Assembly: GCA_013151735.1 (NCBI GenBank)
Contig: JAADHR010000182.1
Span: forward strand, 1-39,060
DNA from: Calditrichota bacterium
Lineage (GTDB): Bacteria; Zhuqueibacterota; JdFR-76; BMS3Abin05
Reading direction: 5' to 3'
Length of the DNA: 39,060 nt
The translations under genes and the position numbers were made by a program. This document shows positions 21,251 through 39,060 of this stretch, one piece after another (the first letter of the stretch is position 1; each line of letters opens with the position of its first letter). The notes beneath the pieces are model-generated. The model searched no databases. It saw nothing but the letters and a program-made list of their open reading frames with translations, and was not told the DNA's origin.

Positions 21251-21949
21251 TTAATATTTTTTTGTAAACACCAGCGGACCGTGGCACCCCGCGCTTGAAC
21301 AGGTTTTGGTGTCAGGATTCCATCCCAAACTGGGATTGACCTCAGCGTGGCCGGTGGAATCGATATGACCCGGCGCATACACACTGTCCGGTACCACATG
21401 GCAGGTGCTGCAGCTCACGCCGGCGTTCAGCATGGCCTGGTGTGCCCCCACTCCGGGCGAGGTGTAATCCAGGTTCCCGGCCAAATCCCTCGGGGGAGCG
21501 GCATTTTTTTCGTTTCCGTGACACGTGTTGCAGGCCTCCGGCCCACCCGGGCGGGTGTGGCATTCGAGACAGGATTTATGGACCACGCCCCCGGAGTAAT
21601 CCTTCCCGTGGCATGCCTGGCAGGGATGCATATCGTAGTTATGAGATTGAATGTAGGCTCCGTGAAAACCGGCCGTTCCGATTTCCATCCAATCCGCTTT
21701 GTGAGGAAAAGCCTTGTGACAGCTGGTACAGGACACACCCACTTCGCCTCCGGACAGATCCTCTCCGTGGCACTCCTGGCAACCGGAATATCCCCGGGCC
21801 AGCACAATTTGCCCGTGAAAATCGGCTGAATTTTCCTGCATCCAGGTTTCGGGGTGTGTCAAACTTTCCACAGGATTTTTCTTCTGGCTGCATCCCCAAA
21901 TGAGAACTGCTCCCAAAATAACCGCAAGAAATCCATAGAATTGTTTCAT
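21251..21949 (-). CDS. heptahaem c-type cytochrome lipoprotein
   Basis: 232 residues from the ATG at 21947-21949. Signal peptide with lipobox LIWGC (Cys20), so it is an exported lipoprotein. Six CxxCH motifs (CQECH, CTSCH, CQACH, CLECH, CNTCH, CSTCH) and one CX4CH (CSSAGCH) near the C-terminus, as in Geobacter-type cytochromes with mixed CxxCH and CxxxxCH motifs. The first four motifs form two repeats with a CHGxDxSGG pattern. The start lies four bases after the stop of the 12-haem gene; a longer upstream frame exists only as an overlap. Probably a distal carrier near the outer membrane (inference). Confidence 0.9.
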   Translation of the reverse strand: MKQFYGFLAVILGAVLIWGCSQKKNPVESLTHPETWMQENSADFHGQIVLARGYSGCQECHGEDLSGGEVGVSCTSCHKAFPHKADWMEIGTAGFHGAYIQSHNYDMHPCQACHGKDYSGGVVHKSCLECHTRPGGPEACNTCHGNEKNAAPPRDLAGNLDYTSPGVGAHQAMLNAGVSCSTCHVVPDSVYAPGHIDSTGHAEVNPSLGWNPDTKTCSSAGCHGPLVFTKKY

Positions 21950-21953
21950 GCCT

Positions 21954-22868
21954 CTACTCTTCTTTATTGGGTTGATTGTGACATTTGAAACACGAGGGAT
22001 AGGTTTTGTAGTCGCCATGACAAGCCAAACACGATTCCAGGTCAAATTCCGCTTCAATTTTGTGTTGTCCGCCATCGATTCGATTAGCCCAATCCACACG
22101 GCCATGGGAGGGCGGCATCACCTCTTTCTCCTGATGGCATTGAATACAGAAAACCTCATCTTCGTGGCACGAAATACATTGAATTTTATTCATTTTAGCA
22201 TCAATCGCATGATTCCATTCATAATTTAAAGGATGCGTGCGATGGGTGAGGTTTTTGCCCTCATGGCAGTCTTCACAATCGCTTTGTGCATGACACTGAG
22301 TGCATTCTTCCGGATTGGACTCGGCCGCAAATTGATGTGCATGTTTCCAGTCCAGTTTATGGCTAATGGGCTGCAAATCTTCCTTGGGCGTATGGCATAC
22401 CTGACATTTCAACGGATCGCTGACCCGTTTTTGTTGATGGCAGGTCTGGCACTGATTCATTTTTGGCAGATGCCGTGCCACCGTGTTGGTTGCTTTCGAA
22501 ATACCAACGTGGCAGGTTAAACATTTTTCCCCGGCCTGCAAATGCGTCCGGTGCGGAAATTTCGGGCTGTACTGGGTGATCCGCGGAACCACCTTTGCCT
22601 CATCGGGATTGGTATGACAAACCGTGCATTTATTGGGCGCACTGTCGCCATCGTGACACTGAAAACAGGTTTCCATATCCGGCAGCAAATTGTCGGTTCC
22701 CTTCATGCTGCTGTCTACCCGGGTGTGACACGTCGTGCAGTCAATACCCATTTCATCCACATGCTTCTGATGCGAATAAATCAGATGATCTTTTTGCCCG
22801 GCGCTGGCAAAAACGGCCACACCGACAAAGAGACCCGCGATGAAAAACAAAAAACCGGCAATTTTCAT
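21954..22868 (-). CDS. dodecahaem c-type cytochrome, periplasmic
   Basis: 304 residues from ATG at 22866-22868. Signal peptide MKIAGFLFF... with cleavage after FASA, giving a soluble periplasmic protein. I count twelve CxxCH motifs (CTTCH, CFQCH, CTVCH, CLTCH, CQTCH, CQVCH, CTQCH, CEDCH, CISCH, CIQCH, CLACH, CFKCH) with many extra histidines (YSHQKH, FPHRTH, WKHAH, WNHAI) spaced as in class III (c3/c7) cytochromes with bis-His haems. About one haem per 25 residues. The start chosen avoids overlap with the barrel gene stop at 22883. Likely carries electrons across the periplasm to the barrel encoded just upstream. Confidence 0.92.
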   Translation of the reverse strand: MKIAGFLFFIAGLFVGVAVFASAGQKDHLIYSHQKHVDEMGIDCTTCHTRVDSSMKGTDNLLPDMETCFQCHDGDSAPNKCTVCHTNPDEAKVVPRITQYSPKFPHRTHLQAGEKCLTCHVGISKATNTVARHLPKMNQCQTCHQQKRVSDPLKCQVCHTPKEDLQPISHKLDWKHAHQFAAESNPEECTQCHAQSDCEDCHEGKNLTHRTHPLNYEWNHAIDAKMNKIQCISCHEDEVFCIQCHQEKEVMPPSHGRVDWANRIDGGQHKIEAEFDLESCLACHGDYKTYPSCFKCHNQPNKEE

Positions 22869-22882
22869 GACTCTCTTTCTCT

Positions 22883-24073
22883 TTAGAATCGGCATATGAC
22901 TTGTCCCAAAATTCGATTATCAACGTTGTACAACCGATTACGAGTGAACTGATCTTCCAAAGAAACCAGAAATTTCCTTTTAATCTGGTACTCCAGCCGA
23001 AAAGCGCTGCCATATTGAATGTAACTTTCAGACCAGTCACTAATCTGGTAGTTGGAAAAATCCAATAAAAGTCTGGCCTTCAGCCCGGAGGTAATGGCGT
23101 ACGAGGCATCCGCATAAAGCCGGGTTTGAAATCCTGCCGCCCCCAAATCCTGCTGAAATCCGACAATTCCGTACGGCGTCAGCACGCCCAAACGGATCTT
23201 TTGTGAGTGTTTTTCCTCGCTTTGAATCCACAATACATCACCTGTAACGCCGTATTTTTTTGAAAAATAATAAACAGCATTGAGCCGACCCTGAGCCAAT
23301 CCATTCAGTTCAAAACGTTCAAAAAAGGAATCGTGATAAACATGCGGTGTGCGATAAAACCCCTCAAGGTAAAAAAGCCATTTCGGCGCTGGCAGCCAGC
23401 GCAAATTTACCAGTGCTTTTTGGAGCGTCGACTCCAACAGGTTATACGAAACCCGCGTCCGCCAGAAAAGGCTCTTGCCGAATGCCCGGCTTGCGTTTAC
23501 TCCAATCAGTTGCCAATAGGCGGAACCCGAACGCACCTTCTGGTAGAAACTCATCCCGAACCGCGTGCCGGCTATTTTCTTTGCTTCGATTTTGGCGCCA
23601 AATACATAGCCATCCTTCAGGCGGTACACCTTGGCCGACCGGTCGTAGGGAACTTCCACCCCTCCAAAGACCGCAACGCTTAGTTTTTTGACGGGCCGGA
23701 TCGTTACAAATCCCCCGTCCAGATAACCAATGCCGACGCCGTTAAAATAAAATTTTCGGCCAAGAGACAGATCCACACGGTTTTTCCAGAGATGATTCCA
23801 CATAAGGTACGCCCCGTACACCTGAAAGGGCGTTTTCATGTTTTCGGGGCCCAGGTCTGTTAACCCCATTACATTCACATGAACAGAGAAATTTTTGATC
23901 AGCTTTGGGCGGTACCCCAAGGTTACCTGTTGATAAAAATTATAGTGCGCATCCTCGGTTTTATATCCCAAAAAGGATGTAACACTCGAACCGGAAAGCT
24001 GGGGTATGGATGCGGTTAATGGACCGGCCCAAATCAACAGGCATGAAACAAGGATTCCAAACTTTAATTTCAT
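22883..24073 (-). CDS. outer-membrane beta-barrel protein, putative conduit partner
   Basis: 396 residues. Signal peptide MKLKFGILVSCLLIWAG cleaved near LTAS. The rest alternates polar and hydrophobic residues with aromatic girdles and short turns (RTRVSYNLL, LNAVYYFSKKYGV, FRLEYQIKRKFLVSLEDQF), and ends in Phe (VICRF), a typical BamA-recognised end. No homology to MtrB or OmbB is provable by eye, and it is smaller than those (about 650-750). Its place between the surface cytochrome gene and the periplasmic 12-haem gene suggests it is the sheath of a porin-cytochrome conduit. Confidence 0.8.
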   Translation of the reverse strand: MKLKFGILVSCLLIWAGPLTASIPQLSGSSVTSFLGYKTEDAHYNFYQQVTLGYRPKLIKNFSVHVNVMGLTDLGPENMKTPFQVYGAYLMWNHLWKNRVDLSLGRKFYFNGVGIGYLDGGFVTIRPVKKLSVAVFGGVEVPYDRSAKVYRLKDGYVFGAKIEAKKIAGTRFGMSFYQKVRSGSAYWQLIGVNASRAFGKSLFWRTRVSYNLLESTLQKALVNLRWLPAPKWLFYLEGFYRTPHVYHDSFFERFELNGLAQGRLNAVYYFSKKYGVTGDVLWIQSEEKHSQKIRLGVLTPYGIVGFQQDLGAAGFQTRLYADASYAITSGLKARLLLDFSNYQISDWSESYIQYGSAFRLEYQIKRKFLVSLEDQFTRNRLYNVDNRILGQVICRF

Positions 24074-24176
24074 GGGGAACCTTTCATTTTAGGTTCATCC
24101 AAATAAGGAAACAGGGCGGAAGAATGCTTTCCGCCCCATTCACATTTATTAATGGATCACTTTCGTTCTCTTCCGC

Positions 24177-25922
24177 TTATTTCAACAGCGTCATCTTCCT
24201 GTAATCCACACGATGTCCGGCCTGAATACGATAAACATACACACCATTTGGAACGGCATGGCCAAGATCATCTTTTCCATCCCACACAATGGAGTGCCGT
24301 CCGGCTTTTTTCTTGCCCTTCACCAGCGTGCACACCCGATTGCCCAGAATATTGAAAACCTCAAGGGTCACATAGGATGCACGCGGCAATTCATACGTAA
24401 TTTTTGTAGACGGGTTAAACGGATTGGGATAATTCTGGAACAATTCAAATTTCGTTGGAGAGCCGGCCACGGTTTCCTCTTTCACTCCCGTTGCATTCAG
24501 GATTTCGTTGGATTTTTGAATGACATCTGCCAGCAGATCCATTTGATACTTATGATTATGAAAGCCTTCGCTTTCGTCCGATTGAACCAGAAACAGATTT
24601 GTTTGGGCTTCTTCTAATTTGGCCAAAAGTCCCGAATCCGTATTCCCCTGCATGGCTGTTTCAGCCGCCGTAACCTTCTGTTCAGCCGAATCCAGTTTTG
24701 CCTGAGTCTCTTCCTTGTACATCTTAATAACAGATTTGGCAGAAGCCGCATTCATTCCCGAATGGCAGGATGCGCACGAAACGGTTTCACTGCCATCCTC
24801 TTCGGCGACAAAAATAGACCAGGAATGTCCGTGGTACATCGCCGAATTGCTTCCATCTACATCGCTGGAATACATGTGGCAATCGGTGCAAGACGCACCC
24901 GGCATGGTTTGTTCAAACGTAACGCCGACCGCCACACCGCCCTTGATAATATTGTAGGTTAGGTGATCGGTATCGGGAAATCGAAGATTGCCATGGCACT
25001 GGCCGCACAATTCGGCAGAATTATCAAAGACCGTGTATTTTTTGGTCGTGGAATTAAAATACGAATATTGATTGGGATAATGCGGATTGTGGCAGGTATT
25101 GCACGCCACACTTGGCCAGTCAGCCTGATTTTTTGAAGTGGTGGAAGCAGAAAAGGCTCCATTGCTTGTGGTAAAGAAATAATCCAGCGCTTCAGCCTCT
25201 GTCATCCCGCCATTGGCCAATACCGCCGTTGGTGCATGGCAGGCGATACAATTTTCGGGATCGGAACCGCTGATGACCGAATCCGGTGTTTCTCCGGCCC
25301 GTTCTTCTGCCAGTTCTTCGGCAACATCATCCTGTGTATCGGAATGTTTACTCATTTTCCAGGCATTATAGGTTAAGTGATCTGTATCTGGAAAATGGAG
25401 ATTCCCGTGACACTGCCCGCAAAGGGACGGAACATTGGCCACCGTGTCATAGGATGTCGTCGTAGAATTGAAGTAGCCAAATACCGGCAAGGATGCCGGG
25501 TGATTTGAGGGAACATTGTGACAGGTTGTACACCAGTTGTGGGGCCAATTGGTTGTATCGGCGACCGTTGTTGAGTCGGTAAATACGCCGTTTGTGGTCG
25601 TAAAAAAGTGACCCAGGGCCTCAGCCTCCGTCATCCCGCCATTTACCGTAACGGCCAGAGGCGAATGGCATGCAATACAATTTTCCGGGTCGGAACCATA
25701 CAAAACCGAATCAGGAGATTCCCCAACCCGTTCCTCTGATAACTCATCAGCCACATCCATCTGGGTGTGCGAATGGCTTCCTTTTAGCCACTGTTGATAA
25801 ACATTTCCGTGACACAATTTGCAATCCAATTGAGACTGCGCAAATGTCATTTGATTCGTCGTCATGATCAAAAAAATCATGGCGGCCAAATAAAATCCCA
25901 AATTGGTTATTCTGGTTTTCAT
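24177..25922 (-). CDS. nonahaem NrfA/HAO-type cytochrome with T9SS sorting domain
   Basis: 581 residues. Signal peptide to about residue 29, then CKLCH followed by WLKGSHSH, the W-x-x-S-x-H pattern of HAO/OTR-type cytochromes. Two tandem units (about 47-185 and 186-325) share SDPENCIACH, NGGMTEAEAL, LCGQCHGNL and FPDTDHLTYN almost unchanged. Nine CxxCH in total. The last is followed by long helices and DESEGFHNHKYQMDLLADV, like the C-terminal helices of NrfA/octahaem reductases. From about 492 comes FELFQNYPNPFNPSTKI and a beta domain ending YRKMTLLK, a T9SS type A sorting domain. Start set by AAGGAGG ten bases upstream. The protein is thus likely exported and bound at the cell surface. There is no CxxCK active-site motif as in NrfA, so catalysis is doubtful. 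Confidence 0.9.
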   Translation of the reverse strand: MKTRITNLGFYLAAMIFLIMTTNQMTFAQSQLDCKLCHGNVYQQWLKGSHSHTQMDVADELSEERVGESPDSVLYGSDPENCIACHSPLAVTVNGGMTEAEALGHFFTTTNGVFTDSTTVADTTNWPHNWCTTCHNVPSNHPASLPVFGYFNSTTTSYDTVANVPSLCGQCHGNLHFPDTDHLTYNAWKMSKHSDTQDDVAEELAEERAGETPDSVISGSDPENCIACHAPTAVLANGGMTEAEALDYFFTTSNGAFSASTTSKNQADWPSVACNTCHNPHYPNQYSYFNSTTKKYTVFDNSAELCGQCHGNLRFPDTDHLTYNIIKGGVAVGVTFEQTMPGASCTDCHMYSSDVDGSNSAMYHGHSWSIFVAEEDGSETVSCASCHSGMNAASAKSVIKMYKEETQAKLDSAEQKVTAAETAMQGNTDSGLLAKLEEAQTNLFLVQSDESEGFHNHKYQMDLLADVIQKSNEILNATGVKEETVAGSPTKFELFQNYPNPFNPSTKITYELPRASYVTLEVFNILGNRVCTLVKGKKKAGRHSIVWDGKDDLGHAVPNGVYVYRIQAGHRVDYRKMTLLK

Positions 25923-26044
25923 TTTCAGCCACCCTCCTTATGTAAGTAACAGTGAGCTCCGAGTGAAATAAACCGAAGCTTGAATTATCTGACCTCATTA
26001 TCGAATGTCATTTTCAGGCTATTGATCGTATACGCATCTTTCCG

Positions 26045-26116
26045 TTACCCTTTCCCCATAACTGCCATTGACGGCATAAAGATTATTCGCATTATCAATC
26101 TATTTTCACAGCTCAT
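26045..26116 (-). CDS. possible 23-codon leader peptide
   Basis: ATG at 26114-26116 is preceded by a perfect AAGGAGG at seven bases. The frame runs 23 codons to TAA and encodes a Met-rich peptide (MSCENRLIMRIIFM...). It lies between the 11-haem and nonahaem genes, 122 bases before the latter's start. It could be a leader peptide, a remnant, or a chance frame. The ribosome site is the only strong support. Confidence 0.35.
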   Translation of the reverse strand: MSCENRLIMRIIFMPSMAVMGKG

Positions 26117-26155
26117 ATGCAAACCTCCTTATTTTTGTTTTTATTTTGTATGACT

Positions 26156-27457
26156 TTACGGTTTTGGCGGAATATCTGCCGGAACAATTACGTTTTTATT
26201 GGCCTCCAATTCATCAGGAGCCACATCAGCTTTTCTCAGAAAAAAACTACGGGTTGAATGGCATTTTAGCGCACAATTACCCCCGCTTCCCGTGGTATCT
26301 GTCCGGGCTGTCCAGCGCTGAATATTGTGTGGTGTACTGTATTTCCAGGTGGGTACAGAATTATAGTTTGCCAAATCGGAAACACCCCAGGCCGCGTAGC
26401 TGTCTCGGGAAACAGGAATATGGCGCACGACGACATACTTTTTGGGATGTTCGGCCGAGCGAATCGGATTTCTTCCAATTTTAAACGACATGTACGGCGG
26501 TTCAGCCAATCCCCCGGCACCCACATGGCACGAATTGCAGTTTTTGTAATCCTGTGAATGGCAGACCTGACATTGAAAATCTTTCCAATGCATGAAATGA
26601 TAAATGTTTGCCGTGGCTTTATCCTGATGACAATCCTCACAGCGGGGTGAATTGGGTACCGCGTAACGCGTATCCGATTCAACGCCCGTGCCGTGTAATT
26701 CATCTTCCTTGTGGCAGAACAAACACTGTTTTTTACCGGATACCCAATGGACATCCGGCTGGTAACCCTCATGCTGTCCCAGATACTCTTCGCCCACACG
26801 ACTTCCGTGGCAAGCCGTGCAGTTGTTGATCATATCCGGTTCTTTGCGAAAGGCATGTCCCATAATAAATCCACCCTTTACGCTGGCCGGCCGGCTCACA
26901 TGACACTGCCCGCAGGTGGTATGACAGGTGCCACAATCCTTCTTAAAATGCTGCATTAAGCCGGGGTTATCTTTAAGCGAGAAACCGGCCCGTTCTCTGA
27001 AAAGCGTAAAATATCCATTTTGATTAAAATGAATGCTCTTTTGGACATGCTCCACAATGTTTGTATGACATCCTGCACAGTAGGTTTGTGCATCCTCAGA
27101 TGGATCGGCCACCAAACCGACATGGGCAGAATCCTTGTTTGTTGCCTCCTGATGGCCCTTGTGGCATCCTACACAGGCGATTTTCCCGTGGACTCCCTCA
27201 AAAAATTCCGATGTGACCAACACCTTTTCCCACGGTGCCAGTGGGGTCACCGAGCCGCCCAGGCCCTCATCTGCCACACCGGAAGGCGCCTCCTCTGGCG
27301 TGGCAACCTTCTTTAGCAATGCCTGATCCGTGTGACAATCCACACACCCAATGGATACATTTAGGGGTTTTGATGGAATGGGCTCCCGCTTGGAACATCC
27401 TACAACCATCATCAGCAGAATCGCCGGCACAGCCCACAACCATTCCTTATTCAACAT
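26156..27457 (-). CDS. undecahaem c-type cytochrome lipoprotein
   Basis: 433 residues from ATG at 27455-27457. Signal peptide with lipobox MVVGC (Cys21). Ten CxxCH motifs (CVDCH, CVGCH, CAGCH, CGTCH, CGQCH, CTACH, CLFCH, CEDCH, CQVCH, CNSCH) and a final CX3CH (CALKCH) near the C-terminus. The fourth and fifth motifs are only two residues apart. Additional histidines (GVHGK, KSIHFNQ, FMHWKDF) are likely distal ligands. The start overlaps the stop of the TPR gene by eleven bases, and AAAGG lies upstream. A surface- or periplasm-facing carrier; which leaflet cannot be told. Confidence 0.9.
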   Translation of the reverse strand: MLNKEWLWAVPAILLMMVVGCSKREPIPSKPLNVSIGCVDCHTDQALLKKVATPEEAPSGVADEGLGGSVTPLAPWEKVLVTSEFFEGVHGKIACVGCHKGHQEATNKDSAHVGLVADPSEDAQTYCAGCHTNIVEHVQKSIHFNQNGYFTLFRERAGFSLKDNPGLMQHFKKDCGTCHTTCGQCHVSRPASVKGGFIMGHAFRKEPDMINNCTACHGSRVGEEYLGQHEGYQPDVHWVSGKKQCLFCHKEDELHGTGVESDTRYAVPNSPRCEDCHQDKATANIYHFMHWKDFQCQVCHSQDYKNCNSCHVGAGGLAEPPYMSFKIGRNPIRSAEHPKKYVVVRHIPVSRDSYAAWGVSDLANYNSVPTWKYSTPHNIQRWTARTDTTGSGGNCALKCHSTRSFFLRKADVAPDELEANKNVIVPADIPPKP

Positions 27458-27878
27458 GATTTGGCCTTTCTTCCATTCGTTTAAGGAGCGCTCGTATTTT
27501 GGGTGAATAGACAAAATTGTTTTTCAGTGATTTAAAGATTTCTTTTGCTTTATCCCGGCGGCCACAGAGACCGTCCAAAATAGCCCTTGCAAGACGCCTG
27601 TCCGATTCCTCTTTATAAAGCGATTCTTCTGATTGTACCTCCAAGCAAATCGGCTTTAAATAGACATTTTCCATCATTTTTTTATCGGGGCAAATCTCTA
27701 TTAACTGAAGGTAATGAACAAGAGCTTTTTCCAAAAGCGCCACTTTCAATTCCGCCAAAATGCAATGAACCAGTACATCCTGATTGTGCGGCTCCTGCTC
27801 CAAAACCGCCTCATAAGCCTGAATGGCTTTTTGGTAGAGCCCGTTAATAAAATACTGATTCCCGAGCATTTCACTCAT
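27447..27878 (-). CDS. small TPR-type helical protein, first gene of the cytochrome cluster
   Basis: About 143 residues from ATG at 27876-27878 (MSEMLGNQYF). An AGGA motif eight bases upstream and a predicted transcription start near 27936 both support this start over the longer frame. The sequence contains a TPR-like pair: GLYQKAIQAYEAVLEQEPHN and a following helix ALVHYLQLIEICPD, and a repeat of the form GRRDKAKEIFKSLKNNF. No signal peptide, so it is cytoplasmic. TPR proteins near cytochrome operons may assist assembly, but nothing in the sequence shows it. It is co-transcribed with, and overlaps, the 11-haem gene. Confidence 0.7.
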   Translation of the reverse strand: MSEMLGNQYFINGLYQKAIQAYEAVLEQEPHNQDVLVHCILAELKVALLEKALVHYLQLIEICPDKKMMENVYLKPICLEVQSEESLYKEESDRRLARAILDGLCGRRDKAKEIFKSLKNNFVYSPKIRALLKRMEERPNHVE

Positions 27879-27942
27879 CAGTTGAATCCTGTTTTTAGAC
27901 AATAATATCCTGTGATAAACTAACAAGAAATGTACCAAAGGT

Positions 27943-31745: not shown

Positions 31746-33710
31746 TTAGAAATACCGTTCAAAGTTCACTATGAAGCGGTTTATTTTTACCCTGCGAGGG
31801 CCAATTTTCCAGGTCTGGCGGTGATAAGATAACTGCAATTTCATCACCCTCCAGGACCACTGAGCAAAACTGGCCAAATCGAGTATAAACTGGTCATACC
31901 CGGCGGAATCTTGCCGAAGGCGCAGTTCGCCGTAAACTTTCACTGAAAACAGGTTGGTGGGATACCACCGGATCTCGGGACGAGCGCTGTAGATATTGAT
32001 ATTTCTATTGACATGACTGTAATCAAACAGGGAAAAAGTGAGTTTCGATGAAACGGTCAAAACTTGATTCAGTTGTAAAAAAGAAACATTGCGCGTTTCC
32101 AGCAGCCGATAGGCCACCAGATTGGATTCCCGAATGATCCGTTCAATAAAAAGTGATGTGCCCCAGGTATTTCCACGCCGGGTTAATTTGAGGCCAATTG
32201 TTTTGATAAGCATATTTTGAAGAAGGGCTCTCTTTTCCGCTGACCCTCTCAATAAGTCCTGATAATGGTGGTTGATCCGATAGTAAAACGATATCCATTT
32301 AAAGTGAACGCCCATATTGAAAATAGTGGTATTTGTTGAATATTTCATGGAGGGCAAGGTTCGAAACTGGTAATCAACCAATATTCTTTGATTCTCCTGT
32401 ATTCGTCCCAAGGGGTTGCGGTAAATCTCAACCAAATCATCAACCGTGCGAATAATGTAATCCTTATCTTCACCTTCTTCGTAGATTATGCTGCCCTGCT
32501 CATTATAAACAACAATTGTTGAAACAATAATATTTCTTTCATTAAAGAATACCGGAAAATCCCCTATAAAAACGTGCTGTTCCCGTACAACGGTTTGTAT
32601 GATATTTTTTAGATTCCGATCTTCCACCGAGTAGGCGCGATTATACACAATACGCAAATTTCCTGAAAATGGAATATGCTTGTTATAATTGATTCCCCCA
32701 TTAAACGCCCGGGATGATTCCCTGCCGTCCGTCAATTTGGCAGAGGTTCCCCCTGCACCAATCGTCGTGTTCAGGCTGGAATAGAGTTGGTGGTTCAGGG
32801 CAAAAAATGCTGATTGCAATAAGGATGAATAATTTTTGAGACGGATATTGGAAATACTATAACGATACTGACTGGAAAAACCGTGTTTGTGTTTTAGTTG
32901 TATCGTTTGAAATGTCCTTATATTCTCATAATTCCGAAGCCCCCGCCGGCGATAAAACCGAACCCCGCCGTTCCAGGTTTGTGATGAATCATGACCAAAA
33001 TAACGGATAAAATTTATGTGGGCATTATGGGATGTAAAACTCCGATCGGCATAAATGCGGTCCTTGATGTCCAACAAGTTGTAGCTGAGACTGATATTCG
33101 ATTTTTCTCCCCTTTGACCCTCATATTGAAGAGTGCGCCGGAGTTGATGAAGCTGGGTGGACCAGTCTATCCTCGACCATTTTTCACGCATTTCTTCCGC
33201 ACCCACGATAAGCGTAGAAGGCATGAATTTTTTATTTATGATTGTAGTCGCTTGATAGCGGTTAATATTGTAGGACGTTCGACCGCCGTAATCCGTATCG
33301 GTGACATTTTTGAGCTTGCTGAAAACGAACGAAGTGGGATAAGCACTTCTGCTAAAAAACAAACCTGAAAGATAGTTGTTAAAGAACCTGGCTTTGGAGT
33401 ACTGCTTAAAATCCCTATAAACATAATGTTCCTGCGAAAGACTTAAATTGCCAATCCATTGAAATGAAAAAACGGCCGGATTGATAACAAATCCCTTGTT
33501 ACGTAAGTCGAAAACCTCTCTGTAATAGGGTCTTTTCGAATATTGAGGTTCTATCCTTCGTTCCGTTCTGTATTGAAGCCGCAGGGTACCCGTAAATCGA
33601 TTTAAATGAAATAGTGCAACCTGTTGAGCAAACAGAGACGAATACACACCCAAACTTAGAATTGAAAATAGAACGGAACCAATTATTTTTTTACTGGATA
33701 GTCCGCCCAT
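31746..33710 (-). CDS. large outer-membrane beta-barrel, putative porin of a porin-cytochrome conduit
   Basis: 654 residues. Signal peptide ending SLFAQ. The mature protein is a run of amphipathic beta strands rich in Tyr, Arg and Ser (YRYSISNIRLKNY, YYRINHHYQDLL, WRVMKLQLSYHR) with charged loops, ending in FERYF with terminal Phe. Its size matches MtrB/OmbB-type porins of electron conduits (about 650-750), but no family motif is provable by eye; a CxxC as in MtrB is not seen. An AAGG eight bases before the ATG lies around the stop of the upstream pentahaem gene, five bases away, so both are translated together. I infer that the pentahaem protein is its periplasmic or lumen partner. Confidence 0.8.
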   Translation of the reverse strand: MGGLSSKKIIGSVLFSILSLGVYSSLFAQQVALFHLNRFTGTLRLQYRTERRIEPQYSKRPYYREVFDLRNKGFVINPAVFSFQWIGNLSLSQEHYVYRDFKQYSKARFFNNYLSGLFFSRSAYPTSFVFSKLKNVTDTDYGGRTSYNINRYQATTIINKKFMPSTLIVGAEEMREKWSRIDWSTQLHQLRRTLQYEGQRGEKSNISLSYNLLDIKDRIYADRSFTSHNAHINFIRYFGHDSSQTWNGGVRFYRRRGLRNYENIRTFQTIQLKHKHGFSSQYRYSISNIRLKNYSSLLQSAFFALNHQLYSSLNTTIGAGGTSAKLTDGRESSRAFNGGINYNKHIPFSGNLRIVYNRAYSVEDRNLKNIIQTVVREQHVFIGDFPVFFNERNIIVSTIVVYNEQGSIIYEEGEDKDYIIRTVDDLVEIYRNPLGRIQENQRILVDYQFRTLPSMKYSTNTTIFNMGVHFKWISFYYRINHHYQDLLRGSAEKRALLQNMLIKTIGLKLTRRGNTWGTSLFIERIIRESNLVAYRLLETRNVSFLQLNQVLTVSSKLTFSLFDYSHVNRNINIYSARPEIRWYPTNLFSVKVYGELRLRQDSAGYDQFILDLASFAQWSWRVMKLQLSYHRQTWKIGPRRVKINRFIVNFERYF

Positions 33711-33715
33711 AATCG

Positions 33716-34303
33716 CTACCTTAAAAAATATTGATTATCTGAATTATGCGGATTATGACACATGGTACAGGGCTCTTTTCCAATAACTTTGTGTTCCGAA
33801 TCCATTATTTCCGATTGATCATGGCATTTGAAACAAAGGGACTGGCCTGTTTCCAATACCAGATGCTTGTTTTTTGATCCGTGCGGATTGTGACACTCCA
33901 GACACTCTCCATCTTCAACGGGCGGGTGTACATATTTCGCATCCAGCTTGTCATCATGACACATTAGGCAGAGGCTATCCGGAGACGCAATGAGGTGATA
34001 AGACTGGCTCACATTATGGCAGGCATCACAGCGATTGTCGCCCGTTTGGGGATGATAATAGAACACCGGCTGTGCCACGGATAGGCTTTCGGCAGCGGCC
34101 GTTTTAGACGATACTCCCGATTGACTGTTGCCATTTTTCCCTTGCAGATTTTGTGTTTGTTTTAAGGGCGGAACCCCGTCAAAAAAAAAGCTCAAAATGC
34201 GATGTCTGGCAATAGGGGTACACTGGAACAGAAATAAACTACCGGACAACAAAATAAAAATCAGCCCCGTCGAATATCTGAATTGTGGGAAAAAACGCTT
34301 CAT
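33716..34303 (-). CDS. pentahaem c-type cytochrome (doubled-CxxCH type), membrane-anchored
   Basis: 195 residues from ATG at 34301-34303; an in-frame TTG six bases earlier is nearer the AGG ribosome site and less likely. A hydrophobic segment (LIFILLSGSLFLFQC) may be a signal or lipid anchor, the lipobox (FLFQC) being weak. It is followed by HRILSFFFDGVPPL, a segment I recall from c3-type cytochromes beside Geobacter-like electron-transfer genes. The C-terminal half has five CxxCH (CDACH, CLMCH, CLECH, CFKCH, CTMCH) with the NPHGSKN and NPHNSDN pattern of the doubled CxxCH domain. It is five bases before the large barrel gene and is probably its haem partner. Confidence 0.88.
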   Translation of the reverse strand: MKRFFPQFRYSTGLIFILLSGSLFLFQCTPIARHRILSFFFDGVPPLKQTQNLQGKNGNSQSGVSSKTAAAESLSVAQPVFYYHPQTGDNRCDACHNVSQSYHLIASPDSLCLMCHDDKLDAKYVHPPVEDGECLECHNPHGSKNKHLVLETGQSLCFKCHDQSEIMDSEHKVIGKEPCTMCHNPHNSDNQYFLR

Positions 34304-34438
34304 TGTCAATTACCTATCCCGGCAAATCTTCTAACTACACACATTATGTTCCGTTTTGATAGAGATAAAAGAAACTTGGAATCAAAATTAAGATCGTCCT
34401 CCCTGTTTGACAACCTCACTCAGAAGCCTATTCTCAAT

Positions 34439-35416
34439 TTACGGATTGACGATATGTATTTTCGCTTTTGCTCTAAGCTGTTTCAGCAGATTCTCCCTGC
34501 GTTCTTCAATCCGCTTTTGAAGCAATTTTTGTTTTAATTCCTTTTGATCTATTTCGTCAAAGGCTAACTGTTTGCCCGGTTTTCGGCCAACCAACTTAAT
34601 AATGTGATACCCGTAAATCGTACGAATGGGCTGGCTTACTTGCCCAATTTTCATTTTTTGAGCAACCTGATCCAGTTCCGGAAGCAGTTGTCCGACATGA
34701 ACCCAACCTATATCCCCTCCCCGGGCACGGCTTGTGGAATCACTTGAAAATTCTTTCACGACCTTGGAAAATTTTTCACCTGCCAGCAGTTTCTTATACG
34801 CCTTTTGAGCCCGTTTCAATCCCGCTTTCCAGCCCGCTTCCATAGAGCCGGGATCGACCGATATGAGGACATGTAATACCTTCAAACGCGCGGGTACAAA
34901 AAACTTTTTCTTATGTTCCTGATAATATCTGCGTACATCTTTATCGGTTACCGAAACCTGATCCATTATCTCCAATTTCTGTACTTGATTAATCAACAGG
35001 CGCCGTTTTAATTTATTAATCCATTCTTTGTAGCTGAGACCAGTTTTTGCCAATTGCTCACGAAAAGCCTTTTGGGTCGGATAAGCACTTTTCATATAGT
35101 TGATATGCTTATTTAATTCCACTTCATCGGCTTTTAGCTTGAGCCTCTTTGCTTCCTGATATAACAATTCATCATCAATCAATTGGTTAAGGACCTGATG
35201 CTGGATTTCCTGATATTTCTGTTTGGATATCACCTTATGAACAGAAATTAAAGGCAGTTTTTGATTGATTCCCTCCAATAAATCACGGTTTGTGATTTTT
35301 ACTCCATTAACCGTGGCCACCACTTTTTTCTTGGCCTGTGCGTTGACCAGGGAAAGAATAAAAAACAAAACAATCCCGCATAGAATGATAAAGGACTTTA
35401 ATTTTTGTCTTTGCAT
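34439..35416 (-). CDS. parvulin-type periplasmic peptidyl-prolyl isomerase (SurA/PpiC-like)
   Basis: 325 residues. Signal peptide ending VNAQA. A SurA-like N-terminal helical domain (VVATVNGVKITNRDL, then Lys-rich helices to about 170), and one parvulin domain about 178-285: VLHVLISVDP, FSSDSTSRARGGDIGWV, and IRTIYGYHIIKLVGRKPG. A basic C-terminal helix follows. It is placed between the OmcE-like subunit and the pentahaem/barrel genes, as such isomerases are in Geobacter nanowire cytochrome operons (my recollection). Its client is probably the cytochrome or the barrel. GAGGA eight bases upstream sets the start. Confidence 0.9.
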   Translation of the reverse strand: MQRQKLKSFIILCGIVLFFILSLVNAQAKKKVVATVNGVKITNRDLLEGINQKLPLISVHKVISKQKYQEIQHQVLNQLIDDELLYQEAKRLKLKADEVELNKHINYMKSAYPTQKAFREQLAKTGLSYKEWINKLKRRLLINQVQKLEIMDQVSVTDKDVRRYYQEHKKKFFVPARLKVLHVLISVDPGSMEAGWKAGLKRAQKAYKKLLAGEKFSKVVKEFSSDSTSRARGGDIGWVHVGQLLPELDQVAQKMKIGQVSQPIRTIYGYHIIKLVGRKPGKQLAFDEIDQKELKQKLLQKRIEERRENLLKQLRAKAKIHIVNP

Positions 35417-35441
35417 CTGCTAATTCCTCTTAAAAATTGAA

Positions 35442-35466
35442 AGGGGTGAGGTAACGCCTCACCCCT
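35442..35466 (-). terminator. perfect hairpin between the OmcE-like gene and the foldase gene, likely partial terminator
   Basis: Ten-base perfect stem AGGGGTGAGG / CCTCACCCCT with loop TAACG. On the minus strand it is followed by TTTCAATTTTTAAG, an imperfect T-rich tract. It lies about 97 bases after the OmcE-like stop and about 26 bases before the foldase start. Confidence 0.65.
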
Positions 35467-35562
35467 CTAATACTTTCGCTCCGGTTGGATGTCTGTTCAA
35501 GGGATAATGTTCAACAAAAATACAACTCGTTTTCAAACGCAATAAATGCCACAGAAACGGAA

Positions 35563-36267
35563 TTAGATATTGTGACACGTTAAACATAATGCGCTGTTGC
35601 TATTACTTACTCTCAAGAATGGACGATTTGTTTCGTCATGCGGATTATGACATGTTGCACATTCCACCTGATCATGATTCGATCCATACAGGGGCAAATT
35701 TCCAACTTTCCCATTAGAGGCCGGATTAAATTTCGGATCGACACTCGGATCGTATGTAATCGAAATCGGGTGATCGTTCCTTAAATCCGTACCAATATTT
35801 GTCCCTTCAAAATTCAAACCCGCCACATGATTTGAACGGGTATGACAATTCTGTGAACAGGAATTAATCGTTGTTCCTGAAGGAGAATCATTACTCGCAA
35901 CAGGAACATTAATCACCTGATCCAATCCAATGGTATTATCATGGCAAGACAGACATGCCAGAGAAACGCCTTGCGGTGAGCTGGCAATCGTCATATCAAT
36001 CGATGGACTGCTGTACATGGTGTACGGTCCAGCCGGAGCACTACGGTTCCATAAAGGCGCCTCAATTGCCGTATTGTTATTATGGGGGGTGTGGCAATAT
36101 ACGCAAATGCCACCCCAGTCCGTAAGACCCATACCGTTTTTTGTAGCCTTGCGCAAATTATGCGGAGTATCCGCAACTTTGTTCCCGAATTGGGCGTAAC
36201 TAGTCCCTTGCCATGTAAATGCAAACGCAAGGATAAGGGCGCCAAACAGAACAAAAAATTTCTTCAT
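35563..36267 (-). CDS. OmcE-like cytochrome, probable nanowire subunit (4 CxxCH plus one CX3CH)
   Basis: 234 residues. Signal peptide cleaved near SYAQ. The mature protein shows the layout of Geobacter OmcE-family filament cytochromes: an N-terminal His (TPHNL, His36), GICVYCHTPHN, EAPLWNR, a YSSPS segment, ACLSCHDNT, DLRNDHPIS, VECATCHNPH and a C-terminal ALCLTCHN. Haem motifs are at Cys55, Cys105, Cys203 and Cys228 (CxxCH), with an extra CX3CH (CSQNCH) at 137-142, absent from tetrahaem OmcE as I know it. Other histidines (62, 147, 166, 198, 210) can be distal ligands. A strong AGGGAGGTGA site lies four bases upstream. It is followed by a hairpin, consistent with high output. Filament formation is inferred from family and context. 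Confidence 0.85.
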   Translation of the reverse strand: MKKFFVLFGALILAFAFTWQGTSYAQFGNKVADTPHNLRKATKNGMGLTDWGGICVYCHTPHNNNTAIEAPLWNRSAPAGPYTMYSSPSIDMTIASSPQGVSLACLSCHDNTIGLDQVINVPVASNDSPSGTTINSCSQNCHTRSNHVAGLNFEGTNIGTDLRNDHPISITYDPSVDPKFNPASNGKVGNLPLYGSNHDQVECATCHNPHDETNRPFLRVSNSNSALCLTCHNI

Positions 36268-36271
36268 TTCT

Positions 36272-36281
36272 TCACCTCCCT
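36272..36281 (-). promoter_or_regulatory. near-perfect Shine-Dalgarno of the OmcE-like gene
   Basis: AGGGAGGTGA followed by AGAA and ATG. This is the strongest ribosome site I found in the window and fits an abundant structural subunit. Confidence 0.7.
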
Positions 36282-36324
36282 TTGGTAGAATTTATCGTGG
36301 AATTATTATAAGTGTCCATCAATA

Positions 36325-37458
36325 TTACTCCTTTGATCCCTTGTTGGATAAATATTGATAGACCTGTACCCTATGATTAAGCTGATCAACAACATAAATC
36401 CGCTGGCGACTGTCGATACAGAGGCCTGCAGGAAGTCGAAGATCAGCCATACCGGAGCCGAAATTACCGAAAGCAAGCAGAATTTTACCATCCTGGTCAA
36501 ATATCTGCACATTATTAAAAGCAGCGTCAGCTACATAAATATGGCCTTCGCTATCCAGCCCAATTCCTTTTGGCCGGGAAAATGTTCCTGGAGTGTTTCC
36601 GATCTGACCGAAACTCTTGATAAATTTTCCATTCGGATCAAAGATCTGAACGCGAAAATTCATCGTATCGACCACATAAATGTTCCCATGCGGCCCAATT
36701 GCAATATTTGTCGGGAACCGAAATTCACCCTTTTCACTGCTTCTGTTCCAGACTTCATCCAGGCTTCCTTTTGGAACATTCTTGAATTTCTCACCCTTTT
36801 TGCCAATAACAAATAATAGTTTCCCATTTCGGCGGTCAAATGCCTTTACCTGATGGGCCCAGGTGTCAACCACATAAATATAGCCGAGTTTTGAATTGAC
36901 CACAATTCCGGATGGACGGTCTAATATATTCTGGCCTCCAAATGCCGTTAGAAACGCTCCGGTGGGATCATAAACAATCACGCGTTTCCCATCCGCATCG
37001 GTAACATAAATATTTCCCTTATTATCAGAGGTCACGCCAAGCGGATTCAACAGCATGCCGATACCGCTTCTTCCCAAAAACGTTAACTTTTTATTCTTAA
37101 AATCAAACATCAGAACTTTGTGCCAGCCCGTATCCACAACCAGAAGACGCCCCCACTTGTCCACATTTACTGAAAAGGGCTTTTTCAAAGCAATTAAGCG
37201 GGGTCTGCCAAATATGGCTTCAAAGATTTTTCTTGCAAGCGACCGCTCCCGTTGTCCCAGAGCCAATTCAGAATGAATGCTTCGGACAAAACGGATCCTC
37301 GGCTGATCAGGAGGAAGGGGCCAGACAAAATCGGCCGGATTTTTCTCGGTTGCCGGACGAGTCCCTGCACATCCCATCATGAACATGCCTATTGTTAAAA
37401 TGGCCAACATAAAAAGCGTTAAACGCCGGGTTATTCTATTTGGCATCAGCTTCACCAC
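36325..37458 (-). CDS. NHL-repeat beta-propeller lipoprotein
   Basis: 377 residues. Signal peptide with lipobox MMGC, then FVWPLPPDQPRIRFV, a segment found in NHL lipoproteins of cytochrome operons (recollection). From about 90 there are six repeats of the NHL type: NPLGVTSDNKGNIYVTDADG, RPSGIVVNS, FPTNIAIGPHGNIYVVDT, RPKGIGLDSEGHIYVADAA and LPAGLCIDSRQRIYVVDQ. These form a six-bladed propeller. It is probably a binding or scaffold protein at the outer membrane for the filament; no catalytic site is seen. The start is GTG at 37456-37458, ten bases after GAGGA; the next ATG (37446) is too far from it. First gene of the operon. Confidence 0.9.
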   Translation of the reverse strand: MVKLMPNRITRRLTLFMLAILTIGMFMMGCAGTRPATEKNPADFVWPLPPDQPRIRFVRSIHSELALGQRERSLARKIFEAIFGRPRLIALKKPFSVNVDKWGRLLVVDTGWHKVLMFDFKNKKLTFLGRSGIGMLLNPLGVTSDNKGNIYVTDADGKRVIVYDPTGAFLTAFGGQNILDRPSGIVVNSKLGYIYVVDTWAHQVKAFDRRNGKLLFVIGKKGEKFKNVPKGSLDEVWNRSSEKGEFRFPTNIAIGPHGNIYVVDTMNFRVQIFDPNGKFIKSFGQIGNTPGTFSRPKGIGLDSEGHIYVADAAFNNVQIFDQDGKILLAFGNFGSGMADLRLPAGLCIDSRQRIYVVDQLNHRVQVYQYLSNKGSKE

Positions 37459-37544: not shown

Positions 37545-37560
37545 TGCAAAATTAATGCCA
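37545..37560 (-). promoter_or_regulatory. sigma-54 (-24/-12) promoter of the nanowire operon
   Basis: TGGCATTAATTTTGCA: GG and GC are separated by exactly ten bases. Compared with the consensus TGGCAC-G-N4-TTGC, only the C and G at positions 6-7 differ. Predicted start near 37534, about 75 bases before the NHL gene start. A sigma-54 activator gene lies just upstream. Confidence 0.7.
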
Positions 37561-37747: not shown

Positions 37748-38152
37748 TTAGTTGAAGATAAAAAGCAAGGGTGAAAAAAAGCGATCCTTTTTGATCTTAT
37801 GGAATGATGTTTCTCGGAGGATTTTAATAAGTTCATCAATATTAAAAGGCTTTGGCAAAAAACAGAGAATTCCGTCTGCTTCCATGCTCTTACGCAACTC
37901 AGGAGAGCCAAATGCTGAAATCAGCATGGTTTTTACGTTTGGCTGACACTGTTTAACCTCCCGCAGGACCTCTAATCCATTGAGCCCCGGCAGCCGAAAA
38001 TCCGTAATAACCCAGTCAAACGTATATTTGGACAACCAGGCAAACGCTTTCTCTCCACTATCTTCAGCAATCACCTCAAACCCTTCCCGGGTGAGAGATC
38101 TTTTGAGAGACCACAGTAATAATTTTTCGTCTTCAATGAGTAAAATTTTCAT
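37748..38152 (-). CDS. single-domain response regulator (CheY-like receiver)
   Basis: About 134 residues from the ATG at 38150-38152 (MKILLIEDE). Acidic pair Glu8/Asp9, phospho-acceptor Asp51 (WVITDFRLPG), Ser79 (LISAFG) and Lys101 (LPKPF), all present. There is no DNA-binding or effector domain; a short basic tail (KIKKDRFF) follows. An upstream in-frame GTG at 38203 would add 17 residues before the normal beta-1 strand and is less likely. It lies just after the sigma-54 activator and may relay phosphate or compete for it in the same pathway. Confidence 0.88.
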   Translation of the reverse strand: MKILLIEDEKLLLWSLKRSLTREGFEVIAEDSGEKAFAWLSKYTFDWVITDFRLPGLNGLEVLREVKQCQPNVKTMLISAFGSPELRKSMEADGILCFLPKPFNIDELIKILRETSFHKIKKDRFFSPLLFIFN

Positions 38153-38199
38153 TTTAAAATGGCTTTTTTTTGCAATATACGTGCAAGAAATATGCCATT

Positions 38200-39060
38200 T
38201 CACAACAAGTTAAATTTTACCATTTTTCGTCGAAGGGCATCCCGGCTGATTCCAAGCAATTTTGCCGCTTTTACCTGATTTCCTTCCGTATAACTTAATG
38301 CCTGACGGATGAGGTTTTTTTCTACTTCCTGAAGTGATAAACCGGTATGGGGCAGTTTTATAAGCGGACGGCTTAACATATCATCCTGTGTATAGGATTG
38401 AATTTCATAGGGAAGATGTTCGGGTTTTAATTCTTCTGTATCTTCAAGAATCATAATACGTTCCAGAACATTTTTAAGCTGGCGGATATTTCCCGGCCAA
38501 CTGTAATTTAACAGGAGTTTTTCGGCTTCTTTTGAAATGCTTTTGACATTTCTATGAAATTGATGATTAAAGCGGTTGAGAAAATATTCCGCAAGAGGGA
38601 TAATATCGTCCTTACGTTCGCGCAGGGGAGGAATGATCAGCGTAATTACATTTAACCGATAAAAAAGGTCCGTCCTGAAATTTCCCGCTTTCGTTTCAGC
38701 GATCAAATCCCGGTTTGTGGTGGTAATTATTCGTACATTGATTGGAATATCATTAAGTCCCCCGATTCTTCTCAAACGCCGGTCTTCCAAAACCTTCAGC
38801 AGTTTCACCTGCATGGCCAGGGGAATTTCGCCAATTTCTTCAAGCAAAATAGTACCCTTATTGGCGATTTCAAACAATCCGCGTTTCATTTTCCGGGCAT
38901 CGGTAAAAGCACCCCGTTCATATCCAAACAATTCACTTTCCAGAAGGGCTTCCGGGACAGCCGTACAATTGAGTTCAACCAGCGGGAAATTTGACCGTCT
39001 GCTTTGGTAGTGAATGATTCGGGCCAGCAAATCCTTGCCCGTTCCGCTTTCTCCCTGAAT
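38200..39060 (-). CDS. sigma-54-dependent transcriptional activator (NtrC family), 5' end outside the window
   Basis: 286 residues visible; the frame is open to the window edge, so the N-terminal domain is missing from view. AAA+ motifs: Walker A GESGTGKD, GAFTDA (the sigma-54 contact loop, usually GAFTGA), Walker B ILLEEIGEIP (Glu in place of the usual Asp), TTTNRDL (sensor I), and the FRTDLFYRLNV and LRERKDDI arginine segments. A Fis-type helix-turn-helix ends the protein (VKAAKLLGISRDALRRK). It is most likely the activator of the -24/-12 promoter at 37545-37560. An N-terminal receiver is probable but unseen. Confidence 0.93.
   Translation of the reverse strand: MQGESGTGKDLLARIIHYQSRRSNFPLVELNCTAVPEALLESELFGYERGAFTDARKMKRGLFEIANKGTILLEEIGEIPLAMQVKLLKVLEDRRLRRIGGLNDIPINVRIITTTNRDLIAETKAGNFRTDLFYRLNVITLIIPPLRERKDDIIPLAEYFLNRFNHQFHRNVKSISKEAEKLLLNYSWPGNIRQLKNVLERIMILEDTEELKPEHLPYEIQSYTQDDMLSRPLIKLPHTGLSLQEVEKNLIRQALSYTEGNQVKAAKLLGISRDALRRKMVKFNLL

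Follow-up and report, generated by a model that had tools for sequence, protein, structure and literature searches.

The five genes at positions 31746-37458 of contig JAADHR010000182.1 from a Calditrichota bacterium (assembly GCA_013151735.1) form a conserved operon which, on balance, we expect to make an OmcE-type extracellular cytochrome filament together with its own outer-membrane port. The window analysed here is the entire contig (39,060 nucleotides, G000:C182) of a 3.95-Mb genome that is 95% complete. The product of the second gene is a full-length relative of the filament-forming cytochrome OmcE, and the last gene codes for a large outer-membrane barrel whose homologues were found exclusively in genomes that also carry an OmcE-like gene.

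Operon structure and host

The operon consists of the following genes, listed in the direction of transcription:

36325..37458, minus strand: NHL beta-propeller lipoprotein, probable assembly scaffold, 377 aa (Pfam NHL, E 1.2e-33; lipobox Cys identified by eye)
35563..36267, minus strand: OmcE-type cytochrome, predicted filament subunit, 234 aa (homology to 7tfs)
34439..35416, minus strand: parvulin/SurA-type peptidyl-prolyl isomerase (PPIase), 325 aa (Pfam Rotamase, E 4.3e-24; SurA_N_3, E 1.6e-16)
33716..34309, minus strand: pentahaem c-type lipoprotein, putative haem partner of the barrel (Paired_CXXCH_1, E 8.7e-24; five CXXCH motifs; lipobox Cys30)
31746..33710, minus strand: haem-free large outer-membrane beta-barrel, 654 aa (AlphaFold2 model and Foldseek; C-terminal Phe)

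An earlier sequence-only reading of this DNA had described five codirectional genes here, and all five reading frames are indeed present at these positions. Pfam matches fit the described families for four of them (NHL, two doubled-CXXCH cytochromes and a PpiC/SurA-type foldase). The pentahaem lipoprotein likely starts from an ATG two codons into its frame, at 34303. As the intergenic gaps from the NHL gene to the barrel gene are 57, 146, 129, and 5 nt, a single transcript is plausible. The unit does not end with these five genes but continues upstream to a sigma-54-type regulator gene running off the contig end.

Eight related genomes share the gene order NHL—OmcE—PPIase—multihaem protein—barrel, varying slightly (tandem OmcE genes, 5 to 21 haems, contig ends), which rules out a chance cluster of reading frames. 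The NHL gene is kept directly ahead of omcE in the related loci. Genes for a secreted propeller and a PPIase thus adjoin an OmcE-type cytochrome gene, as in nanowire assembly modules, and the host genome encodes cytochrome c assembly genes.

The closest relative of the host is bacterium BMS3Bbin03 of the same genus (88% cytochrome identity). Further relatives are labelled KSB1, Calditrichaeota and, in the case of one metagenome-assembled genome (MAG), "Bacteroidetes." Since the host genome also contains 71 matches to the sorting tail of the type IX secretion system (T9SS), the label of an FCB-like bacterium given to it from sequence is reasonable.

The OmcE-type cytochrome

Comparison of the 35563-36267 product with all PDB sequences gave two clear matches: 7tfs, the OmcE cryo-EM chain (phmmer E 1.6e-25, residues 30-233), and 9yuq, a putative multihaem cytochrome (E 1.8e-25) whose entry holds 16 identical chains. 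A profile built from 24 relatives matched both over the full length (E 8.8e-50 and 1.2e-41, respectively). OmcS produced short local matches only (profile E 5.5e-5), ruling out membership of that family. In an alignment of 48 sequences, the product shares 35% identity with 7tfs across 206 columns. Its four CXXCH motifs (residues 55, 105, 203, and 228) align with the 7tfs sites, and eight axial-type histidines (36, 59, 62, 109, 166, 207, 210, and 232) are histidines in both 7tfs and 9yuq. By these comparisons the product is a genuine full-length OmcE relative; the profile and phylogenetic comparisons place it with OmcE, as had been proposed from its motif layout. OmcE carries four haems and has one inter-subunit histidine ligand (PMC12954529; PMC12307469), and by homology the window protein is predicted to polymerise into a filament as well.

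Two related loci (L003:8908-10711 and L005:8919-10708) contain OmcE genes of the window type in tandem, reminiscent of omcS/omcT pairs.

Linkage between the filament gene and the barrel

Independent profile searches located OmcE-like and barrel genes in the identical 18 of 82 genomes of the phylum. These carriers are scattered patchily over eight families, with a naive probability of 1.7e-18 for such coincidence. Among 388 genomes, OmcE is present in 34 and the barrel in 24; every one of the 24 barrel carriers has OmcE (P 1e-30), as do all six barrel genomes outside the phylum (P 7e-9), all these values being calculated without regard to common descent. OmcE occurs without the barrel in 10 genomes, while no barrel without OmcE was seen among the 388. 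The patchiness extends to within families (e.g., f10, f18, f9, and f20), implying several independent gains or losses. The filament gene and the barrel gene are therefore strongly supported as tightly linked partners forming one unit. The sequence-only reading had placed filament subunit, chaperone, scaffold and outer-membrane conduit in one unit; co-occurrence bears this out for the filament gene and the barrel, and the role of the barrel as a conduit is a predicted one. The same reading noted a barrel in the operon here. It is present, and the arrangement is shared by other genomes of the phylum and by at least five families beyond it.

Two arrangements can be distinguished. In type I, to which the window belongs, genes for a histidine kinase and a sigma-54 activator are followed by NHL, one or two OmcE genes, PPIase, a multihaem protein and the barrel. 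Type II has the order OmcE, NHL, pentahaem protein, barrel, 12-13-haem protein, OmcE, lacks the PPIase, and is found in other parts of the phylum as well as in families beyond it. The occurrence of both types of module within family f10, and of type II also outside the phylum (loci L053:13580-15535, L084:1128-3092, L085:4568-6532, and L086:6484-8424), suggests horizontal transfer or differential loss.

At 16 loci in the phylum and beyond, proteins of about 560-700 aa with 10-11 CXXCH motifs carry an N-terminal OmcE domain and are mostly encoded beside an NHL gene (e.g., L049:51-1757, L050:9120-10829, L085:12022-13797, and L092:3726-5486). Such a fusion of the OmcE domain to about seven further haems could serve as a filament base or tip adaptor. 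At the threshold applied, the window genome has none. A check of large haem-free proteins encoded next to OmcE genes beyond the phylum did not reveal another barrel family: of these proteins, one belongs to the O-antigen-ligase/TPR type, another is a type II secretion ATPase, and the remaining ones gave no convincing family.

A probable fifth haem site

The OmcE-type protein of the window has an extra CX3CH motif at residues 137-142 (CSQNCH). The four CXXCH motifs listed previously were all located, but this one was missing from that list. In the first alignment, all 13 sequences from the window's clade had CX3CH and none of the 13 others did; the clade is monophyletic with 99/99 support. Both cysteines and the histidine are invariant in the 13 members, while the three residues between the cysteines vary. 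Moreover, genome G341 encodes two OmcE-like proteins with a canonical CXXCH in the corresponding loop. Since the motif is invariant in its clade and has a canonical counterpart in another lineage, it likely binds a fifth haem. An atypical haem motif of this CX3CH form has been recorded for homologues of ImcH (PMC6295460).

Four clade members (from L004, L009, L047, and L048) have just nine histidines, the eight core ones and H142, so no conserved distal histidine would be available for this haem if it is attached. Met84 and Met92 are specific to the clade, and their role as ligands of the fifth haem is speculation. The atypical spacing and the lack of a conserved distal histidine would also suit a disulphide or metal-binding loop in a plain tetrahaem OmcE, a reading otherwise compatible with the filament operon. 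We consider it unlikely, as invariance of precisely Cys, Cys and His among varying residues, the canonical motif in G341 and the ImcH precedent all speak for haem attachment.

OmcE variants with five CXXCH motifs were also encountered (L053:10925-11560, L086:1609-2367, L054:7203-7889, L055:1094-1780, and L088:6212-7848). Their extra site lies in one of three loops, near positions equivalent to window residues 137, 175, and 217, which suggests that a side haem has been gained repeatedly among OmcE variants.

The barrel and its haem partner

A confident AlphaFold2 model of the barrel built with 13 homologues has about 28 strands and a small inserted domain near residues 372-449 (pLDDT 82.2). Its Foldseek matches are large barrels only, none of them specific; MtrB (6r2q_B) and LptD are among the higher TM-scores (0.36-0.38). 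MtrB and LptD are both 26-stranded.

In the adjacent pentahaem protein, the lipobox Cys30 and ten histidines are invariant in eight homologues, and ten histidines are enough for five bis-His haems. The haem protein at this position has 7, 9, 13, or 21 haems in other genomes. Across loci L004, L009, L007, L008, L047, and L048, it grows from 5 to 7, 9, 13, and 21 haems with the rest of the operon unchanged. Type II loci have two multihaem proteins, which flank the barrel.

Proposed function and alternatives

In the mechanism that we favour, the subunit would be exported via Sec and receive its haems. The PPIase, a probable foldase for the filament subunit, would help it fold, and the NHL lipoprotein would position it; these assembly roles are inferred from proposals made for beta-propeller/PPIase operons (PMC5539420) and for the OmcS block (PMC12977616). 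Polymerisation would take place outside the cell, where each subunit would lend one histidine to its neighbour, as OmcE subunits do. The barrel and the pentahaem lipoprotein (with 7-21 haems in relatives) would provide a transmembrane electron link from the periplasm to the filament base, and the fifth haem, predicted to lie on a side loop, would offer a lateral contact for the wire.

Several points weigh against this reading. A sequence resembling OmcE does not by itself prove polymerisation, and caution in naming nanowires from sequence has been urged in the literature (PMC12977616). The AlphaFold model of the subunit built from 24 relatives has a pLDDT of 38.9, and no haem spacing can be read from it. 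The barrel has no match in Pfam, NCBIfam or PDB sequences, MtrB included, in single-sequence and profile searches, and its structural similarity to MtrB (TM 0.38) is no better than that to LptD. Five haems may be too few for a complete transmembrane wire. In the window a single multihaem protein adjoins the barrel, where a classical porin-cytochrome complex would have a second cytochrome as well. Finally, common descent is ignored in the co-occurrence statistics.

The main rival explanation is that the barrel is an export and anchoring port for the filament, with the pentahaem lipoprotein acting as a periplasmic chaperone or docking cytochrome. The exclusive link between barrel and filament gene suits such a port equally well, the barrel model is as close to LptD as to MtrB, and a foldase is encoded alongside. 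In addition, the OmcE-like proteins lack the T9SS sorting tail despite its 71 matches in the genome; T9SS export of the subunit is thereby ruled out and another route across the outer membrane is needed. A multihaem protein nevertheless stands beside the barrel in nearly every locus and expands from 5 to 21 haems without loss of this arrangement, and in type II loci multihaem proteins lie on either side of the barrel, as in porin-cytochrome clusters. We regard the export reading as unlikely; co-occurrence fits port and conduit alike, and both could be true.

Even less probable, in our estimate, is that the OmcE-like protein makes no filament and works as an ordinary monomer, a periplasmic or surface cytochrome that feeds a porin-cytochrome complex. 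Several small cytochromes are common in porin-cytochrome clusters, such complexes have been reported in the KSB1 MAGs OFTM72 and OFTM356 (PMC10732223), and within its set of close Geobacter paralogues polymerisation is known for OmcS only (PMC12977616). However, all eight axial histidines of OmcE are kept in the window protein. In OmcE, one of them comes from the neighbouring subunit (PMC12954529), so that one haem of a monomer would lack a ligand. The 16 identical chains of 9yuq suggest assembly, and the foldase and propeller are the companions of nanowire clusters.

A more detailed version of the filament-and-port reading can be offered tentatively, and we would sooner doubt it than rely on it. 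It pictures a branched five-haem OmcE-type nanowire, in which the surface-loop haem without a second histidine makes a reactive or "leaky" side contact. The wire would be plugged into the cell by a dedicated sigma-54-controlled barrel that occurs only in genomes with the filament gene and belongs to a family outside Pfam, NCBIfam and PDB.

Proposed regulation of the operon

The regulatory genes and putative control elements of the operon are as follows:

38200..39060, minus strand: sigma-54-dependent response regulator of the NtrC type, cut at the contig end (Pfam Sigma54_activat, E 6.4e-58; HTH_8)
38183..38197, minus strand: sigma-54-like -24/-12 element TGGCATATTTCTTGC, ahead of the receiver gene (matching element in L002 at 8078)
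37748..38203, minus strand: small receiver-only response regulator (Pfam Response_reg, E 1.6e-22; orthologue in L002)
37546..37560, minus strand: sigma-54-like -24/-12 element TGGCATTAATTTTGC, 102 nt upstream of the NHL start (sequence match)
35440..35468, minus strand: hairpin of 12 bp in the gap separating omcE from the foldase gene, with a T-rich stretch after it (sequence inspection and z-scores)

In relatives, an orthologue of the NtrC-type regulator gene is located directly upstream of the operon and is preceded by a histidine kinase gene. A -24/-12 element (TGGCAtN5TTGC) was found upstream of NHL in nine of nine loci against 0.17 expected from the background, although these loci are related and hence not independent. 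Its distance to the mechanically called NHL start is 11-179 nt. The adjacent two-component, sigma-54-dependent regulator would thus be the candidate for switching transcription on.

The receiver-only regulator is encoded between the activator gene and the operon and has a sigma-54-like element to itself; it is conserved in L002 and probably starts at an internal ATG.

The gap between omcE and the foldase gene (102-295 nt) contains a strong hairpin in all ten loci, with a stem of 11-17 bp (one bulged) and mostly a T-rich stretch after it; z-scores were -1.4 to -3.8 in the nine loci tested. The hairpin sequence varies between lineages while the hairpin itself persists. It likely acts by partial termination or 3' protection, so that the subunit would be made in excess over the products of the downstream genes.

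A second electron transfer cluster in the window

Another extracellular electron transfer cluster occupies positions 21251-27938 (minus strand):

21251-22105, minus strand: 8-haem lipoprotein
21954-22895, minus strand: 12-haem protein
22883-24073, minus strand: haem-free protein of 396 aa, barrel-like by eye
24177-25922, minus strand: 9-haem protein with a type IX secretion tail
26156-27514, minus strand: 10-haem lipoprotein

This cluster appears to be a porin-cytochrome system in its own right, whose outer cytochrome would be exported by the T9SS.

Comparison with known systems

Geobacter sulfurreducens OmcE (7tfs) and 9yuq share with the window protein full-length homology and a register of haem motifs and axial-type histidines. 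Apart from the modest identity, the window clade differs from OmcE in having CX3CH in a loop where OmcE has no motif and in co-encoding a barrel and a haem lipoprotein. The likeness to Geobacter nanowire gene order rests on the OmcS-type cluster, as described in the literature; a scan of the genome collection gave no Geobacter locus. The GSU2493-2500 block of that cluster, which has been connected with the maturation and secretion of OmcS nanowires (PMC12977616), and the operon of SEEP-SRB1 and metal reducers (PMC5539420) also have a six-bladed propeller and a PPIase beside multihaem cytochromes. Their core, as described, includes neither an OmcE gene nor an adjacent barrel, and large proteins with 16 and 26 haems take the place of a small subunit.

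OetABI cassettes of syntrophic sulphate reducers and Geobacter pair OmcX/OmcS filament cytochromes with porin conduits (PMC10553843), so that putative filament cytochromes and a porin-cytochrome conduit are combined in one cassette, as in the window. As described, they differ in having filaments of the OmcS/OmcX type, in contrast to the OmcE type, and two named conduit cytochromes; the window barrel belongs to a family without a database match. The MtoA-OmcE-NHL locus of Geoalkalibacter ferrihydriticus has an OmcE homologue, two NHL proteins and a conduit-type cytochrome, but neither a barrel gene (mtoB) nor a foldase was reported there (PMC12016550). The window resembles MtrCAB (6r2q) in that a multihaem cytochrome accompanies a large barrel without haem; the strand numbers are similar and MtrB is among the best TM-scores, whereas the window barrel lacks sequence similarity to MtrB, a pentahaem lipoprotein takes the place of decahaem MtrA, and there is no adjacent MtrC. 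Loci L004 and L009 come from OFTM72 and OFTM356, whose porin-cytochrome complexes are not described as filament operons in the available part of PMC10732223.

Significance

The arrangement is not unique to this host. Comparable filament-plus-conduit cassettes have already been published for Desulfobacterota, and OetABI with OmcX/OmcS and the beta-propeller and PPIase cytochrome operons are precedents. New, as far as the literature searched goes, are the OmcE-type version with a barrel family lacking database matches, the exclusive co-occurrence of the two genes, the probable fifth haem site throughout the clade and the predicted control by sigma-54.

How nanowires are electrically connected to the cell and how they leave it are unsolved questions, and Geobacter has several redundant conduits and filaments. 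With the subunit, its helpers, a multihaem link and a barrel all encoded in one compact operon, the pairing of filament and outer-membrane port becomes open to testing. The operon would extend OmcE-type wires, with gene-neighbourhood support, to the KSB1/Calditrichota lineage, where wires with a fifth, side-facing haem are predicted.

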